A DNA stretch of 64,000 nucleotides from Sphingomonadales bacterium (GTDB lineage Bacteria > Pseudomonadota > Alphaproteobacteria > SMXS01), in assembly GCA_022844405.1 (NCBI GenBank), contig JALHLV010000006.1:1-64000 (forward strand), given 5' to 3'. The number at the start of each line of letters is the position of its first letter. The first letter of the stretch is position 1. This document shows, piece by piece, positions 22,275 through 38,989 of the stretch. Below the pieces are notes generated by a model that worked only from the letters and a program-made list of their open reading frames with translations, had not been told where the DNA came from and ran no database searches. A program made the position numbers and the translations under genes.

Positions 22275-22679
22275 TCATGGGCTATGCCAGTCCTCCAACC
22301 CAAGCCCGCCGACGCGAATGAACTCGCGCGCATTATGCGTCACGATCTTGAGGCCTCGCCGCAAGGCGCTCGCGGCAAGCAGCAGGTCATAGGCTCCTAT
22401 GGGCGTGCCCTGGCTGTTCAGGCTTGCACGCAATTGCGCCGCCACGCGGGCGTCCTCGCGCTCGAACGGCAAGACAGAGATCGTGTTCAGAAGCATCCGC
22501 ATGGCTTCCCGCAGGCGCGGTGCAAGGTTGGGATTACGCGCCAGCCCGTACTCGACTTCCATCTCCGTGATCACCGAGACGGCCAGTTGAGGCGGCGCTT
22601 CCTGGCGAAGCCGCGCCATGACGGCCCGCTCGCCACGCGCGAAGTCGCTCAGCACATTGGTGTCGAGGAGATACTTCAC
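22275..22679 (-). CDS. vapC: VapC-type PIN-domain toxin ribonuclease
   Basis: The 134-residue protein is a PIN-domain RNase: YLLDTNVLSDF gives the first acidic residue, EMEVEYG the second, and GAYDLLLAASAL the third, ending with a THNAREF block. VapC toxins cleave tRNA or rRNA when freed. It overlaps its antitoxin by four bases (ATGA), the standard module layout. Confidence 0.93.
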   Translation of the reverse strand: MKYLLDTNVLSDFARGERAVMARLRQEAPPQLAVSVITEMEVEYGLARNPNLAPRLREAMRMLLNTISVLPFEREDARVAAQLRASLNSQGTPIGAYDLLLAASALRRGLKIVTHNAREFIRVGGLGLEDWHSP

Positions 22680-22918
22680 GAATAGGCATCTTCACGCGGT
22701 GGCAGCAACTCGCCGCGATACGATTCGAACGGCGGCGTGTCGGGGTTGCCCTGCCACTCCAGAATCAGCGATGGCCAGCCGGGGCTGCCGAGTGTCTTCT
22801 TGTCCAGCCACTCGCGCAGCGCCTTGCGGATCAATCCGCTGCGCGTCTCGCCCAATTCCTTTGCCGTCTGGTCCAATTCCTTGGCCGTTGGATCGTCGAG
22901 ATAGAGGTTGAAGTTCAT
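22676..22918 (-). CDS. vapB: VapB-type ribbon-helix-helix antitoxin
   Basis: The 80-residue protein begins with a ribbon-helix-helix DNA-binding part (MNFNLYLDDPTAKELDQTAK, then TRSGLIRKALREWL). The C-terminal tail with WPSLILEWQG should wrap the toxin. It is first in the operon and likely represses it through the palindrome at 22941-22961. Confidence 0.88.
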   Translation of the reverse strand: MNFNLYLDDPTAKELDQTAKELGETRSGLIRKALREWLDKKTLGSPGWPSLILEWQGNPDTPPFESYRGELLPPREDAYS

Positions 22919-23047: not shown

Positions 23048-23620
23048 TCACCCCACCTTGCGCCGGTAGAACAGCGCCCTGCCCGACGGCACCAACTGAA
23101 GCAGGACATCGAAGTCGGCGATATTGTCCGTGAGCACCGCGAGGCCGAGCTTGCGGCCCTGAAGGAACAGGGTGCAGTCCATGAGCGCCCGCAGCCTCGT
23201 GTCGGCCGCGTAGCCCTGAAGCCGGCACAGCATGCCCGAGAGAAGCGCGGCACGGCCCAACACGTCCGGGTCCGGCGTGAACACAAGGTGCGCCGGCATC
23301 GCGCGGACCTGCCGCCTGATTTCGGCGATGGCGGTCGGCGTGCGCCGATCGGTCGGGTTCAGCACGCCGACGGTGTGCATCAGTTCCTGGATGGCGACGG
23401 TGGAATGGTTGACCTGCCGGCTGGCAATCAGGTCGTCCATGCGCGCCGGCGTCCGGTCCTGCAGCTGGTCGATGTAGACGCAGGTATCGAGCAGCAGCGA
23501 CTGCCCGGCAATGTCGACGTCGTCGATGAACGGCAGTTCCTCGTCGGAACGGCGGGCGAGCGTCCGGCCGGGATCGAGACGTGCCCAGCGGCGGGCGGCA
23601 TCGAAATCGAACGCGGTCAC
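23048..23620 (-). CDS. PIN-domain toxin with N-terminal extension
   Basis: The 190-residue product has PIN-type acidic positions in SLLLDTCVYIDQLQ, VAIQELMH, DCTLFLQG and VLTDNIADFDVLL. About 50 residues precede the PIN core, which is unusual for VapC. GTG 23620 lies one base after the antitoxin stop. It forms a second toxin-antitoxin module right beside vapBC on the same strand. Confidence 0.8.
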   Translation of the reverse strand: MTAFDFDAARRWARLDPGRTLARRSDEELPFIDDVDIAGQSLLLDTCVYIDQLQDRTPARMDDLIASRQVNHSTVAIQELMHTVGVLNPTDRRTPTAIAEIRRQVRAMPAHLVFTPDPDVLGRAALLSGMLCRLQGYAADTRLRALMDCTLFLQGRKLGLAVLTDNIADFDVLLQLVPSGRALFYRRKVG

Positions 23621-23621
23621 C

Positions 23622-23900
23622 TCAGAAGCCGAGATCCAGGTCCGGGTCCACATTCCCGCGCGCCTTGCGGAACGCCTCGGCGAAGCCGTCGTCGAGCGCG
23701 ATGCTGGCCAGCGCGAACTCGATCAGGTCGCTGTCGGCGTCGATGCCCGTGCGCTGCTTGGCGCGCGCCACCAGCGCCGGACTGACCCGCCCGCCGATCC
23801 GCCCGCGCTTCTCACCCAGCAGACCGGACCGCTCGGCCGCGCTCAGTACGGCCTCAACGCGGGATGGGTCGGATGGAGGTTTGGGAATTGTCTTCGGCAT
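23622..23900 (-). CDS. Antitoxin of the second PIN module
   Basis: The 92-residue protein starts with a Pro-rich basic part and holds a short ribbon-helix-helix-like region (RIGGRVSPALVARAKQRTGI, then DLIEFALASIAL). The acidic C terminus (NVDPDLDLGF) probably contacts the toxin. A palindrome 14 bases upstream supports autoregulation. Confidence 0.75.
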   Translation of the reverse strand: MPKTIPKPPSDPSRVEAVLSAAERSGLLGEKRGRIGGRVSPALVARAKQRTGIDADSDLIEFALASIALDDGFAEAFRKARGNVDPDLDLGF

Positions 23901-31868: not shown

Positions 31869-32573
31869 CTATGTTGCGCCCGCCTTCGTTGGGGGATCGT
31901 CTAACGGTAGGACAGCGGACTCTGACTCCGCCAGTCTAGGTTCGAATCCTAGTCCCCCAGCCAACCTCTCTCCGGCTTCGCCATACAAATCCCGCAGCGC
32001 CTCGACGCTTTGCCTGGAGTAGTAGGCGGCGCTCCAGCGATGGGCCTGCCGTGCGCCGCGGTCGCGCAGGCCGGCGCTCAGGTGCCGCACGCTGCCGGCG
32101 CCTACCATGAGGGCGCACAGCGTATCGAGCATGCCCAGCGTCAGGCTCTGGTTGAACTTGCGCAGGCTCGCATAGGTGCGCTCCGCGGGGACGCGGTCTT
32201 CGTGGACGAGGAATATCTCGCCCGAATCCACCCGCCGTTCCATCCGGTGCAGCGTCGCGCCGACCGTCGGATGATTCTCGATCAGCGGGATGAGGTCATA
32301 TCCCATGCCTCTGAGCCGCGGCAGCGCGGGATGGATGTTCAGGGGGAGCTCGATGGCCTCCAGCGCCTGCTGGGTCAGGACCAGGTCGCTGTAGCACGAT
32401 ATGGCCAGGTCCCATGTCCCCGCGGCGATGCGGTCCAGAACCCCGGCCCGGGCCGCCGGCTCGTTCACGCTCCACGATGCCCAGGTCAGGTCGGCGCAGA
32501 TGGCGGACACCCTGGCATGGGCGGCGGCGCCAAGGTTGGTGTCGGTGATCAGCAGGGTCCTGGGAGGCCACAT
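31869..32573 (-). CDS. Formyltransferase-like protein overlapping tRNA-Gln
   Basis: The 234-residue product resembles the formyl-THF-dependent formyltransferase domain: LPLNIHPALPRLRGMGYDL supplies N79 and H81 and RRVDSGEIF supplies D116, the Asn-His-Asp catalytic set. Its last ~30 residues (LGFEPRLAESESAVLPLDDP) are simply the antisense reading of the tRNA-Gln gene, so the natural 3' end may have been lost or the coding end may be accidental. Six bases separate it from the CphA-like gene, indicating an operon. Confidence 0.75.
   Translation of the reverse strand: MWPPRTLLITDTNLGAAAHARVSAICADLTWASWSVNEPAARAGVLDRIAAGTWDLAISCYSDLVLTQQALEAIELPLNIHPALPRLRGMGYDLIPLIENHPTVGATLHRMERRVDSGEIFLVHEDRVPAERTYASLRKFNQSLTLGMLDTLCALMVGAGSVRHLSAGLRDRGARQAHRWSAAYYSRQSVEALRDLYGEAGERLAGGLGFEPRLAESESAVLPLDDPPTKAGAT
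31890..31963 (+). tRNA. tRNA-Gln (CTG anticodon)
   Basis: A full cloverleaf folds: acceptor TGGGGGA with TCCCCCA, anticodon stem GCGGA/TCCGC with loop CTCTGAC (anticodon CTG), T arm CTAGG-TTCGAAT-CCTAG, and an encoded CCA end. It lies wholly inside the 3' end of the formyltransferase-like gene on the opposite strand. Confidence 0.96.
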
Positions 32574-32579
32574 GCGGCG

Positions 32580-34745
32580 CTAGCCCAAGCGGTTGAGCAG
32601 CGCGTTGACCGTGTCCATGGCCGAGGTAAGCGATTTCATTGCGATCTCCTGGCCGATGCGGGCGGATACGGGAATATCCATGCAGGGCGTGTCCCACGGG
32701 CATGCCGGGGCGATCTCGCCGAACTCAATAGCACGACTTTCTTGTCCGGCATCCCGCATATGCATGCGTGCCAATCGCTCGACGGCCCGGATAACATCTC
32801 GGGACGTGAGCATGGCGTCGGCCGTACCGCCATTGTCATGCGCCCCCATGCCCGCCAGATGCTCGAGGAATCGCGCCCGGGGCAGCGCGCGTGGCCGCCA
32901 GCACCTGAGTATGGCGACGATGCCGGTGGCATCGGTGACGTCGATCCTCTCGACGATCGGCCTGATCCCGCCGAGACCATCCTGGTAGGGCGCGACGATC
33001 CCGTGGACCAGCCGGGTGATCGCGTCCTGATCGAGGACATCCGTGACCACCCGCTTCGAGCACCGTACCATGGTGTCGGACAATTTGGTGCCGGCGGCGA
33101 ATGTCACATCGCACCGCCCCAGCGGAAAGCCGCGCGCTTCGATCGCCGTCACCGGCGATGACACCACCACGGCCTCGACCCTGGGATCCAGCAGCAGCGC
33201 CTCGACCTCGGGCGAACGGACCGAATTGAACGGGTCGCCCGCTGGCGCCCTCGGGTTGCCCCGCAGGTAGGTGCCGTGTCCGACGATCAGCTTTCGGCGC
33301 GATAGAGCGTCGATCACGGCCCGCTGGACTGACCGCTGGTAGTCGTCCTCGCCGATCACGACAAAGCTGGGAACCATCCCGGACAGGCGAAACGGCAGCA
33401 TCGTTCTCAGGACCAGGCTGGCATCGCCGTGGCCGGATATGCCCGGGTTCGAGTTCACCTCGATGATCGCCGACGGAACCTCCTTCCACGACCGGGAAAT
33501 GTCCGGGGTCACAAAGTCGATGCCAAGCGCGCTCATGCGGAACAGCTGCGCGACGCGAACCGCCATATCGCGGTTGTCGGGATGGAGTTGCTCCGTCACG
33601 TCCTCGAGCAAGCCGCCGCGCGCCAGATTGGCCTCGCCGGAGAGGTCGATTTGCCGGCCCCCGCCGGGGACCGACTCCAGCGTCAGCCCATAATTCTCGG
33701 CGATGAACCGTTGCAGGGAAGGATCAGCCACGACTTCCTTCAGGTAGGTGTCACGCGACTGGGCCTTGCGCGCATCGGCGCGCCGCTGGTTCTCGCTGGC
33801 GATCAGCTCGCGGATCGTCGCTCGTCCGTCGCCGACCACGACGGGCGGCGTGCGCCGGTAGACCCACAGCAGCTTGCCATCGACGACCGTCATCCGGTGG
33901 TCCAGGCCGGCGACGTGGTTCTCGAGGACGAGCGGGTAGTCGCTGACACCGGCGGCGTGTTCCACGGCTTCGGCCAGGTGCCGTTCGGATAGGATGCGCG
34001 CGGTGACGCCGAGACCCTTGCCGCGATTCCTCGGCTTCACCACGCAGGGAAAGCCGATACGCCTGGCAGCGTCGAGGGCATCATCGGCCCGCCAGAGCGA
34101 CACCGCCCTGGTCGTCGGCAGCCCGGCGCGCTGGAGAAACTCCACCGTCGACAGCTTGTCCCGGGAAAGGATCTGGCCGGTCAGGCTGTCCTGGCTGTTG
34201 GCCAGTTCGAAGAAGTGCCGGCCGCGCGCCCCGCTCCCGATCTGGAACACCGATCCCCCAGGGCTCGCGGACACCACGCCCAGTCCGAGTCCCCCGGCCG
34301 CCTGCATCAGCAGCCCGCCGATCTCGCCTGCAGGCCGCCATGTACGGGCGTGGCGCCCCAGCATGCGGGCCGCTTCCGGCACATCTTCGCTGACGATCGC
34401 GCCGTGGCAGTGGAGCAATGCGGTCGCGGCGATGCTCGGCGGGAAGTGGGACATGCAGATCCAGCCGGTGGCCCCCGATGCGCCCGCGCTCCATCGCGGC
34501 GGCGCGGGATGCTCCAGCAGGGCGGATGCCAGCGCGCCGATCGCCTCCGGCAGGGCAAGCTCGCCGCGGGACGCTTTTATGTCCAGGTCATACCCCGACT
34601 GTTCCAGTGCACGGGCGAGATGCTGGAGAGAAAAGCGCCTGTCCGGCAGCGAAAACGACATCTCGATGCAGGCTTCCGGATGACGCCCGCTGGCACCGAA
34701 ATACTGCTTCAGGACTGGTTTCTCGCCGCGCGCCGTATCCGACAT
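32580..34745 (-). CDS. Cyanophycin-synthetase-like ATP-grasp protein with degenerate Mur-ligase domain
   Basis: The 721-residue protein follows CphA layout: N-terminal domain to about 190, ATP-grasp at ~195-455 (SRDKLSTVEFLQRAGLPTTR, VVKPRNRGKGLGVTARI, D410, AIIEVNSNPGISGH), then a Mur-ligase-like tail. CphA normally has the P-loop GTNGKTTT at the tail start; here it reads GEDDYQRSV (465-473), so that ATP site is dead, though VEALLLDPRVEAVVVSSPV and LGRCDVTFA are still alignable. It may ligate one amino acid or peptide only. It lies four bases after the permease gene. Confidence 0.82.
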   Translation of the reverse strand: MSDTARGEKPVLKQYFGASGRHPEACIEMSFSLPDRRFSLQHLARALEQSGYDLDIKASRGELALPEAIGALASALLEHPAPPRWSAGASGATGWICMSHFPPSIAATALLHCHGAIVSEDVPEAARMLGRHARTWRPAGEIGGLLMQAAGGLGLGVVSASPGGSVFQIGSGARGRHFFELANSQDSLTGQILSRDKLSTVEFLQRAGLPTTRAVSLWRADDALDAARRIGFPCVVKPRNRGKGLGVTARILSERHLAEAVEHAAGVSDYPLVLENHVAGLDHRMTVVDGKLLWVYRRTPPVVVGDGRATIRELIASENQRRADARKAQSRDTYLKEVVADPSLQRFIAENYGLTLESVPGGGRQIDLSGEANLARGGLLEDVTEQLHPDNRDMAVRVAQLFRMSALGIDFVTPDISRSWKEVPSAIIEVNSNPGISGHGDASLVLRTMLPFRLSGMVPSFVVIGEDDYQRSVQRAVIDALSRRKLIVGHGTYLRGNPRAPAGDPFNSVRSPEVEALLLDPRVEAVVVSSPVTAIEARGFPLGRCDVTFAAGTKLSDTMVRCSKRVVTDVLDQDAITRLVHGIVAPYQDGLGGIRPIVERIDVTDATGIVAILRCWRPRALPRARFLEHLAGMGAHDNGGTADAMLTSRDVIRAVERLARMHMRDAGQESRAIEFGEIAPACPWDTPCMDIPVSARIGQEIAMKSLTSAMDTVNALLNRLG

Positions 34746-34749
34746 CCGT

Positions 34750-36069
34750 TCAGCCCACCGCCAGCCAGGCGAAGCGCGCCGCGAATAGCGCGGCCAGCAG
34801 GATCATCAGCCAGTCGCCGCGGCCTGCCTGCCCCGTCGCCAGCTTCAGCGCTACATAGGCGATGACGCCGAAGGCGATGCCGTTGGCGATCGAAAACGTC
34901 AGCGGGATGCCCACGAGAACGAGGAACGCCGGGATCGCCGTCGCCGGATCGTGCCAGTCGACCCTGGCGAGCGGCGCCATCATCATGGCGCCGACCAGGA
35001 TCAGCGCCGGTGCGGTTGCCGCGGCAGGAATCGCCTGGGCATAGGGCGCGGCGAACATCGCGGCGAGGAACAGCAGGCCGACGACCACCGCCGTCAGGCC
35101 GGTGCGTCCGCCGGCGGATACGCCCGAGGCGCTCTCGATGTAGTTCACCACCGGGCTGGTGCCGGCGACCGCGCCGGCCATGCTCGCCGCGGAGTCGGCA
35201 AACAGCATGCGCTTGAGGCGCGGGATGTGCCCCTCGGGCGTCATCAGTCCGGCGCGCTGGGTAACGGCGACGAGCGTTCCCACATTGTCGAACAGGTCGA
35301 CGAACAGGAAGATGAAGACGATCTCGACGAGGGCGATGCCGGTGCCGTGGCCACCAAGTCCCAGCGCCCCGGGGATGTCGAGGCGGAAAGCAGTCGATGT
35401 CAGCGCGGCGACGCTGTAGTCCACCGGCTGCATGGTGACCTGGCCCAGCACCCATGCCAGCGCCGTGGTCGCCAGAATGCCGGTCAGAATGGCGGCGCGT
35501 ACCCGCCACGCCAGCAGCGCCGCCGTGAGCGCCAGGCCGAACACGGTCAGCCCGGCCGCCGGCGTCGTCAAATCGCCCAGCGCCACGGCGGTCGCCGGGT
35601 GGGCGACGACGATGCCCGCGCCGTGCAGGCCGATGAAGGCGATGAACAGGCCGATGCCGGCGGCGATGGCGGCATAGAGCGACTGCGGAATGGCGGCGAT
35701 GATCAGTTGCCGCAGGCCCGCCACGGTCAGCAGCAGCATGGCGAGGCCAGACAGGAACACGCAGCCCAGCGCCGTCTCCCACGGCAGGCCCATGCCCTTC
35801 ACCACCGTATAGGTGAAATAGGCGTTGAGCCCCATGCCGGGCGCCAGTGCGATGGGCGAGTTGGCCGCGAGGCCGATCAGGATCGAGCCCATGGCCGCGC
35901 CCAGGCAGGTGGCGGCGGCAGCGCCGGCAAAAGGCATCCCCGCGTCGGCCAGGATCGTCGGATTGACGACGATGATGTAGGCCATGGTGAGGAAGCTGGT
36001 CAGTCCGGCCAGCACCTCGGTGCGGACGGTCGTGCCGTTTTCAGTGAGGTGGAAGACCCTGTCGAGCAA
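34750..36069 (-). CDS. NCS2/AzgA-type purine permease
   Basis: This is a multi-pass nucleobase permease. The 439-residue product shows FHLTENGTTVRTEVLAGLTS, FLTMAYIIVVNPTIL, LAPGMGLNAYFTYTVV and FLFVDLFDNVGTLVAV, hallmark segments of AzgA-like hypoxanthine/guanine transporters. I place the start at TTG 36069, just before the family-like LDRVFHLTE; an open extension to 36306 has no family likeness. It heads an operon with the CphA-like and formyltransferase-like genes, hinting that these act on a nucleobase-related compound. Confidence 0.85.
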   Translation of the reverse strand: MLDRVFHLTENGTTVRTEVLAGLTSFLTMAYIIVVNPTILADAGMPFAGAAAATCLGAAMGSILIGLAANSPIALAPGMGLNAYFTYTVVKGMGLPWETALGCVFLSGLAMLLLTVAGLRQLIIAAIPQSLYAAIAAGIGLFIAFIGLHGAGIVVAHPATAVALGDLTTPAAGLTVFGLALTAALLAWRVRAAILTGILATTALAWVLGQVTMQPVDYSVAALTSTAFRLDIPGALGLGGHGTGIALVEIVFIFLFVDLFDNVGTLVAVTQRAGLMTPEGHIPRLKRMLFADSAASMAGAVAGTSPVVNYIESASGVSAGGRTGLTAVVVGLLFLAAMFAAPYAQAIPAAATAPALILVGAMMMAPLARVDWHDPATAIPAFLVLVGIPLTFSIANGIAFGVIAYVALKLATGQAGRGDWLMILLAALFAARFAWLAVG

Positions 36070-36953: not shown

Positions 36954-38045
36954 GTGCCCAAGGCGCTATTCCGGTCGTTGATCGCCGTCGGCGCGCTGCT
37001 TCTCGCCGCGCCGGCCTTCGCCAAGGTCGATCCCGGCATGGTCGGGTCGTGGTTCGTCATGACCTCGAACAGCCAGGGCGCCGTGTTCATGACCCTCGAT
37101 ATCCAGGCCAACGGAAACTATTCGATCCGAGGCGAAGGGCCGGGCGCGCCAGCGGCGCGCGGCGGCCGGATCGAGGCCTCGGGCGGCAGGTTCACCATGA
37201 CCGGCACGGGGGCCGATTCCGGTACCTATCTCATGCCCTATCCCTCCATGCTGCAGCTTACCGGCAGGAACGGCATGGTGTGGTGGAACCGCAAGGACCC
37301 GAACGCGGCGGGACCGCAAATGGGGCCGTCGCAGCCCGACGTGCCGCCGGTTGCCCTCGCCCAGGTCGCGGGCCAGAGCGTGCCGGCCAAGCTCCCCGAT
37401 TATCTGGTGACCATCGCCAAGCGGGTGACGAGCTGGCAGAAGGATGCGCGGCTGGTGGCGCTGGAGATCCGTATTTCCGGCGCCGAGCCCTCGACCCGGT
37501 TCTATTTCTGGTCGCCCACGGCACGCCAAGCGCTGTCGGTGATGCCGGACGCGGCCATCGGCTACCAGGTCACTCCGGTGGACGACTGGAACTATGCCAC
37601 GACGCCGTTGCCGCCGCGCTTCATCGACCTGGCGCAGGCCGCGAGGGTCGCGCGCCAGCACGGCATGAAGGCCATGAACGCCGCCGACTTGCGCGTCTTC
37701 GCGCCGGACGGGCGCCCACCGGTGCTTGCCTGGCAGCTCCGGGATTCGTCCGGGCCGTGGTACGTGGACGGCCTGTCGGGCGCCATGCTGCTGGGCGACG
37801 TCAGCGGCGACCGGGCCTATCTGGAGGCCGAATGGCAGCGCGCCGCCGCCGGCATGCGCTCGTTCATGGATAGCCTCAACCCGAAGAAGGCGCAGCCGCG
37901 GGGCCAGGGTGGCGGCGGCCGGCAATGCGGCTTCTCCTATCCGAGCGCGGGCACCGACTACCAATGCACCGGCCAGGGCGGCAACTGGTCGTGCACCGAA
38001 TATTACGGCGGCTCCTGCACCTGCTCCGTCTACACGGCCTGCTGA
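36954..38045 (+). CDS. Secreted protein with Cys-rich tail
   Basis: From GTG 36954, after GGAGG, the 363-residue product has a signal peptide (SLIAVGALLLAAPAFA). The middle part contains lipocalin-like strands (GSWFVMTSNSQGAVFMTLDI); the last 38 residues hold six cysteines in the pattern C-x13-C-x8-C-x8-C-x-C-x6-C. I know no family for it. It overlaps the next gene in a TGATG. Confidence 0.65.
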   Translation: MPKALFRSLIAVGALLLAAPAFAKVDPGMVGSWFVMTSNSQGAVFMTLDIQANGNYSIRGEGPGAPAARGGRIEASGGRFTMTGTGADSGTYLMPYPSMLQLTGRNGMVWWNRKDPNAAGPQMGPSQPDVPPVALAQVAGQSVPAKLPDYLVTIAKRVTSWQKDARLVALEIRISGAEPSTRFYFWSPTARQALSVMPDAAIGYQVTPVDDWNYATTPLPPRFIDLAQAARVARQHGMKAMNAADLRVFAPDGRPPVLAWQLRDSSGPWYVDGLSGAMLLGDVSGDRAYLEAEWQRAAAGMRSFMDSLNPKKAQPRGQGGGGRQCGFSYPSAGTDYQCTGQGGNWSCTEYYGGSCTCSVYTAC

Positions 38046-38989
38046 TGCGCTGGAGCGCCCTCGCCGTGCTGCTGCTGGCGCTCGCGGGCGCCGCGCTCGC
38101 CGAGCCCTACCGCGACGAGATCAACACCGGTGGCCAGTGGCGGCCGGGCGACCCGCTCTATGAGGGCGGCGGCACCGAGCGGGACCATTTCGGCACCCAG
38201 GGCCGGAGTACCGAGGGCGAGACATGCGTCGGCAACGTCATCCCGGTCGACAGGATCGGCGGCGGCAAGAGCTGGAACCCGGGCTGCTACGCCATCAGGG
38301 GCGACAGGCGCCACGCCTGCTGCGGCTGCATCTCGTCGCCCGACGATCCCTACAGCGTGCAGGAGTTCGAGGCCGAGGGCCTGCCGGTGTGCGGCGCCCA
38401 GGACCAATCAGGCAGGAGACCGCCGGACGGCGGCAAGAATATCTACCGGGAATCGAACGACCCCCGCGATCGGGGCCGGCCGGGCCATCCGGACATCGAG
38501 CGTCTGGCGGAGGCCATCGACGACTGCCTGCGCAAGAGCGTCGAGCCCGGCTGGGGCCTCTACGATACGCCGAGCCTGGTCGAGTACTCGGAAGGCGTCG
38601 CGTATTACGAGGGTGGCAGCGTCCATTACAATCCGGCCACGCTGGGCCGCATGCCGCCGGAGCGGCAGGTCTATGCGCTGGCGCGGGCCTATGCCGGCCA
38701 TGCGATCTACCTGCGCGACCGCTACCTTCGACATGGCGAGCCCGGCAAGTACGAGGCGGCGCAGCCGTCATCTCTCGACACCGACCGCATCGTCGGTTTC
38801 GCGACCCGTTGCCTGATGAGCAAGGACATGCTCGAGATGCCCATCAACAAATCGCCGGATGACCCGCGCGTCACTTATGGCATGTCGGTCGGCGGCAATG
38901 CGCCGCGCCTCGACGCCTTCGACAAGGGTTTCCAAGGCTGGCCGCTGTCGCCGCTCTACCGGCCCAAGCTGGACCCGGCCCACCGTTAG
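38045..38989 (+). CDS. Secreted cysteine-containing protein of unknown function
   Basis: The 314-residue product has a clean signal peptide (LAVLLLALAGAALA) and many cysteines (ETCVGNV, GCYAIRGDRRHACCGCISS, VCGAQ, DDCLRKS, TRCLMS). The later part (YEGGSVHYNPATLGRMPPER) looks like a small peptidase-type or binding domain but has no clear motif. It starts at the ATG overlapping its neighbour's stop and likely forms a secreted pair with it. Confidence 0.65.
   Translation: MRWSALAVLLLALAGAALAEPYRDEINTGGQWRPGDPLYEGGGTERDHFGTQGRSTEGETCVGNVIPVDRIGGGKSWNPGCYAIRGDRRHACCGCISSPDDPYSVQEFEAEGLPVCGAQDQSGRRPPDGGKNIYRESNDPRDRGRPGHPDIERLAEAIDDCLRKSVEPGWGLYDTPSLVEYSEGVAYYEGGSVHYNPATLGRMPPERQVYALARAYAGHAIYLRDRYLRHGEPGKYEAAQPSSLDTDRIVGFATRCLMSKDMLEMPINKSPDDPRVTYGMSVGGNAPRLDAFDKGFQGWPLSPLYRPKLDPAHR

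Follow-up and report, generated by a model that had tools for sequence, protein, structure and literature searches.

Two adjoining genes of a Sphingomonadales bacterium, encoding a CphA2-like ATP-grasp ligase (LIG) and a formyltransferase (FT), form an insertion in a variable slot of the genome and are moderately likely to be a horizontally acquired two-gene module yielding an N-formylated dipeptide, short peptide or end-capped polymer. The genes lie within a window of 64,000 nucleotides, comprising positions 1 to 64,000 of the forward strand of contig JALHLV010000006.1 (assembly GCA_022844405.1). A purine permease gene located immediately upstream is resident in the genus and is a bystander.

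Gene layout and the insertion slot

Three minus-strand frames separated by 4 and 6 bases are present in the window, exactly as a preliminary description of this DNA had stated. The family calls made there were upheld by Pfam and NCBIfam searches, which matched the frames to a purine permease (Xan_ur_permease, 1.6e-43), a cyanophycin-synthetase-type ATP-grasp ligase and a member of Formyl_trans_N (1.1e-6). The best NCBIfam model for LIG was cyanophycin synthetase, with a match of 9.3e-63, yet this was far below the curated cut-off of that model. A tRNA-Gln gene on the strand opposite FT had been overlooked. The features are as follows.

34750-36069, minus strand: permease, Xan_ur_permease (NCS2), a resident gene outside the inserted module (Pfam and six congeners)
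32580-34745, minus strand: LIG, CphA2-like ATP-grasp ligase of 721 aa (NCBIfam, profile A3 and AlphaFold model)
34257-34745, minus strand: LIG residues 1-163, N-like domain lacking the primer-making HxxEH motif
33381-34256, minus strand: LIG residues 164-455, ATP-grasp (G) domain with the sole apparent active site (residue map to TeCphA1)
32976-33380, minus strand: LIG residues 456-590, Mur-like core lacking both P-loop and lid module
32583-32975, minus strand: LIG residues 591-721, C-terminal extension, low confidence
31869-32573, minus strand: FT, formyltransferase of 234 aa (Pfam, alignment with the L010 and L011 homologues, and PDB profile match)
31890-31963, plus strand: tRNA-Gln (CTG), at the edge of the insertion (position shared by six congeners)
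31971-34750, no strand assigned: inserted segment without congener homology (blastn against six congeners)

The permease starts with TTG, and its frame stays open to 36306. Elsewhere in the window, a PIN-domain protein and a ribbon-helix-helix partner (22275-22918) resemble a VapBC toxin-antitoxin pair, two adjoining short minus-strand genes of 190 and 92 aa (23048-23900) have a pair-like layout and no Pfam match, and two overlapping plus-strand frames of 363 and 341 aa near the permease (36954-38989) also have no Pfam match.

Six congeneric genomes were compared with the window. In all six, tRNA-Gln is flanked by the permease gene (76-92% identical) and a Ppx/GppA gene (78-95%), and the order of the three is conserved. 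The slot between tRNA-Gln and the permease was occupied by a nucleotide-sugar transferase/TPR gene in four congeners, by a 157-aa frame in one and by a PAS-FAD oxidoreductase gene in the other; neither LIG nor FT was present in this slot in any of the six. Thus, the gene content of the segment at 31971-34750 and of its counterparts (L143 to L148) differs by congener, and the site is one of variable insertion. Nucleotide homology to the six congeners, as detected by blastn, ended ∼7 bases beyond tRNA-Gln (about position 31970) and resumed at the permease stop codon (34750-34752). Because other genes fill the slot in the congeners and nucleotide homology is interrupted up to the permease stop, LIG and FT are an insertion.

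The scattered distribution of the pair, described below, fits horizontal transfer. The window contains no second, directly repeated copy of the 3′ end of tRNA-Gln, which would have pointed to insertion by an integrase. Viral contigs yielded no relative, and plasmids yielded only CphA-type matches, none of which spanned 80% of LIG. Base composition was considered as proof of transfer and set aside; the GC3 of LIG is slightly low (0.82 versus 0.90), a difference that is not decisive.

These comparisons bear directly on the pathway put forward in the preliminary description, in which a nucleobase-like compound enters through the permease and is extended by LIG with an amino acid and by FT with a formyl group. 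The three frames are codirectional, and the gaps of 4 and 6 bases make cotranscription possible at present. However, six congeners with neither LIG nor FT carry the permease at this position, no permease relative was found at the other LIG loci, and the trio is not linked in other genomes. A conserved three-gene unit and a nucleobase-like substrate supplied by the permease are, therefore, largely refuted by synteny, and we regard this pathway as exceedingly improbable.

The ligase and its relation to CphA1 and CphA2

A profile built from 23 related ligases (A3) matched CphA1 over the N domain, the G domain and the Mur core (Mcore). The AlphaFold model of LIG had a mean pLDDT of 75, with values of >70 over most of residues 7-590, and aligned with CphA1 with a Z score of 30.6 over 552 residues and with CphA2 with a Z score of 26.5 over 544. 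The C-terminal extension of 130 residues (32583-32975) is absent from the closest relatives of LIG and gave no significant PDB relative and no recognized homologue.

The roles of residues in TeCphA1 are known from mutation studies, in which CphA1 was impaired by Ala at Glu215, His267 or Arg458 (PMC9427784). Residue mapping showed that the G domain of LIG keeps K197, K237, R284, R298, N373, D410 and E429. The ATP-grasp catalytic set is complete, as K220, K261, R309, D431 and E450 of TeCphA1 correspond to LIG K197, K237, R284, D410 and E429; the ATP lysines, both Mg ligands and the acceptor-carboxylate residues are retained, and TeCphA1 Arg309, Arg323, Asn394 and Gly456 are all kept. The substrate residues Glu215, His267 and Arg458 are replaced by Ile192, Lys243 and Ser437. 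In the Mur part, the active site of TeCphA1 (K499/E558) is lost and the P-loop GTNGKT, present in six of six CphA1 controls, reads GEDDYQR. The HxxEH motif, which is the primer-making site of the N domain (PMC9262961), is absent from LIG. LIG, therefore, differs from CphA1 in both of these sites and in its specificity residues while sharing with it the N/G/Mcore fold and the ATP-grasp catalytic residues.

CphA2 is defined by N and G domains followed by a Mur part without P-loop or lid (PMC9427784), and this is the architecture found in LIG and in the CphA2 structures (PDB 7ta5, 8fxh and 8fxi). A lysine in the ATP-grasp P-loop, at the position of His267, and an RSWKE motif are common to LIG and CphA2. 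In the G-domain tree the LIG clade grouped with CphA2 with support of 91/97, just below the 95/80 bar, in a tree that contained two CphA2 sequences and whose deeper order was poorly resolved. LIG is so predicted to have one ATP-grasp site, which would make amide bonds as in CphA2. The two differ in that CphA2 is cyanobacterial and LIG proteobacterial, with ∼21 to 22% identity over the fold, and in that LIG adjoins a formyltransferase in a genome without CphA1 or cyanophycinase.

The absence of a cyanophycinase, noted in the preliminary description, was confirmed across the whole genome. The statement that there is no second cphA was correct for the window but not for the genome, in which strong matches revealed seven more CphA-like ligases. 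The eight strong ligase matches fall in frames that do not exceed 766 aa, too short for CphA1, which the genome therefore lacks. With neither cyanophycinase nor CphA1, the host has no known source of beta-Asp-Arg, and for this reason LIG is not called CphA2 by function. That LIG might make ordinary cyanophycin, or repolymerize beta-Asp-Arg like cyanobacterial CphA2, draws on its domain order, the shared lysine and RSWKE motif and its position in the tree. The missing source of beta-Asp-Arg, the replaced specificity residues and the formyltransferase partner all argue against such an activity, and it is very unlikely, in agreement with the expectation of the preliminary description that ordinary cyanophycin is not the product. 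The ordinary cyanophycin arrangement, with a cyanophycinase-like gene adjoining a full-length CphA1, was observed in two other genomes of the class (L101 in G087 and L106 in G024).

The formyltransferase and recurrence of the pair

Asn79, His81 and Asp116 of FT and the NIHP motif were invariant in an alignment of three homologues. The best PDB relatives of FT were sugar N-formyltransferases (profile E value of 3.4e-8), with GAR transformylase, Fmt and the gramicidin formylation domain ranking lower among the solved relatives. These solved relatives all act on amines. FT shares family membership, the NIHP..RG motif and the Asn-His-Asp set with both the sugar N-formyltransferases (4nv1, VioF and WlaRD) and the formylation domain of linear gramicidin synthetase; it differs in having a peptide-type ligase as its partner and no recognized sugar-nucleotide genes nearby.

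The FT frame runs antisense to tRNA-Gln from about residue 204, that is, over the last ∼30 codons, and residues 210-234 match the six congeners that lack FT at 96-100%. As this tail is tRNA antisense shared with genomes without FT, these ∼30 codons are not original FT sequence. The original C terminus has probably been lost or replaced, and FT may be damaged at this end. The structure model of FT was of low confidence (pLDDT 45).

A peptide-pattern scan for LIG relatives was performed on one genome per species for 84,980 species. Three relatives with 36-40% identity (L009, L010 and L011) stood clearly above the rest. In L010, an FT homologue adjoins the ligase gene tail to tail, 1 base apart; in L011, the homologue is on the same strand with an 88-base gap. 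These homologues are 33-35% identical to FT and are the sole such genes in their genomes. For L009, no FT was found beside the ligase or elsewhere in an assembly of only 2.0 Mb. LIG and the three relatives formed one supported clade (100/98, or 98/90 on the G domain alone), in which LIG is a long branch and which lies apart from every other ligase of the host genome. The pair thus recurs, without the permease, in two unrelated, distant bacteria, and the linkage of ligase and formyltransferase, for which the preliminary description had suggested a neighborhood search, is real. The change in orientation between L010 and L011 argues against a merely inherited neighborhood. No shared neighbors beyond the pair were seen among the called genes of the window, L010 and L011.

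The pair is known from only these three loci, the window included. Across 398 genomes of the phylum, an FT profile recovered only the window's own copy at 1e-15; one additional weak match (7.7e-15) in 385 genomes of the class, L125, lies near a NeuB-like gene and is probably a sugar formyltransferase. Nothing beyond the known loci was detected when ∼200 relatives of the L010 genome and ∼200 of the L011 genome were scanned. This type of FT is very rare. Searches of the literature yielded nothing joining cyanophycin synthetase, ATP-grasp and formyltransferase and nothing relevant on such ligases with a sulfotransferase or methyltransferase. The pairing of a CphA2-like ligase with a formyltransferase is sound, and the literature searched does not describe it.

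Proposed pathway, alternatives and related ligases

In the pathway that we propose, LIG would activate an amino acid or short peptide by phosphorylating its C-terminal carboxylate and would join the activated carboxylate to the amine of a second amino acid or dipeptide. FT is predicted to use 10-formyltetrahydrofolate as the donor and to formylate a free amine on that same molecule, and formylation of the peptide product of LIG, or of its first amino acid, would be the simplest joint reading of the two enzymes. We infer from their linkage that both act on one molecule; how the steps are ordered and to which class the product belongs are likewise inferred. A precedent for an acyl cap combined with ligation is provided by the N-acetylglutaminylglutamine synthetase (TIGR03103) system, in which a related ATP-grasp enzyme is coupled to an amine-capping enzyme; there, the cap is acetyl and comes from a GNAT domain, the partners are others and the ligase is distant in the tree. 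The earlier suggestion that an amino acid and a formyl group are added is, once the nucleobase is removed from it, still a reasonable reading of the chemistry.

The product might alternatively be a decorated surface glycan, with FT formylating an amino sugar and LIG coupling an amino acid to a sugar that may be lipid-linked. The closeness of FT to sugar N-formyltransferases would be explained, several of the paralogous ligases sit with glycosyltransferases, and four congeners have the nucleotide-sugar transferase gene in the same slot. However, no sugar-nucleotide aminotransferase, dehydratase or glycosyltransferase was recognized beside the pair among the called genes of the window, L010 and L011, and LIG folds like a peptide ligase; we judge glycan decoration to be distinctly unlikely. 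The insert might also be a decaying fragment, in which FT lost its own end on joining tRNA-Gln, LIG is evolving fast and the module is dead in this host. Such decay would account for the FT frame crossing tRNA-Gln antisense and for the long branch of LIG and its C-terminal extension missing in relatives, but both frames are intact at full length with coding-like codon use (GC3 of 0.82-0.87), and the catalytic residues of the ATP-grasp ligase and the formyltransferase are kept. A dead module is unlikely on this evidence, and a functional peptide-formylating pair is preferred.

The seven further CphA-like ligases of the host genome (G000) also lack the Mur P-loop. They are located on contigs C1, C3, C8, C9 (two), C16 and C18 (L089 to L095), and the six congeners have two to six such single-site ligases per genome. 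Most of the seven adjoin methyl-, sulfo- or glycosyltransferases or phosphodiesterase-like proteins. Their immediate same-strand neighbors include methyltransferases (two loci) and a sulfotransferase; at one locus, an alkaline-phosphatase-like protein is accompanied by a glycosyltransferase and a second sulfotransferase. The alkaline-phosphatase-like protein has no Pfam match of its own, and its counterpart in G005 matches Phosphodiest. Other neighbors were a MAPEG protein, a weak match to cupin, and a glycosyltransferase accompanied by a phosphodiesterase. Judged by similarity of translations, congeners repeat the pairings with methyltransferase, sulfotransferase and MAPEG, and methyltransferase or glycosyltransferase neighbors of such ligases occur in other families of the class. 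Enrichment of these neighbors is an impression rather than a statistic. Seen against these neighborhoods, LIG and FT look like one module of ligase plus tailoring transferase among many.

More tentatively, the pair may fall within a large and so far undescribed class of peptide pathways that need neither ribosome nor NRPS, in which single-site CphA-like ligases are each accompanied by their own tailoring transferase (formyl, methyl, sulfo or glycosyl) and in which a genus with up to eight ligases per genome gains modules at variable slots. As the ligase-transferase pairs are short, this idea is cheap to test. CphA2 has been described as a cyanobacterial enzyme for cyanophycin recycling (PMC9262961 and PMC10206079). 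If the idea is true, the CphA2 fold would have been reused many times for small modified peptides in proteobacteria without cyanophycin metabolism, and standard genome-mining rules may miss such peptides.
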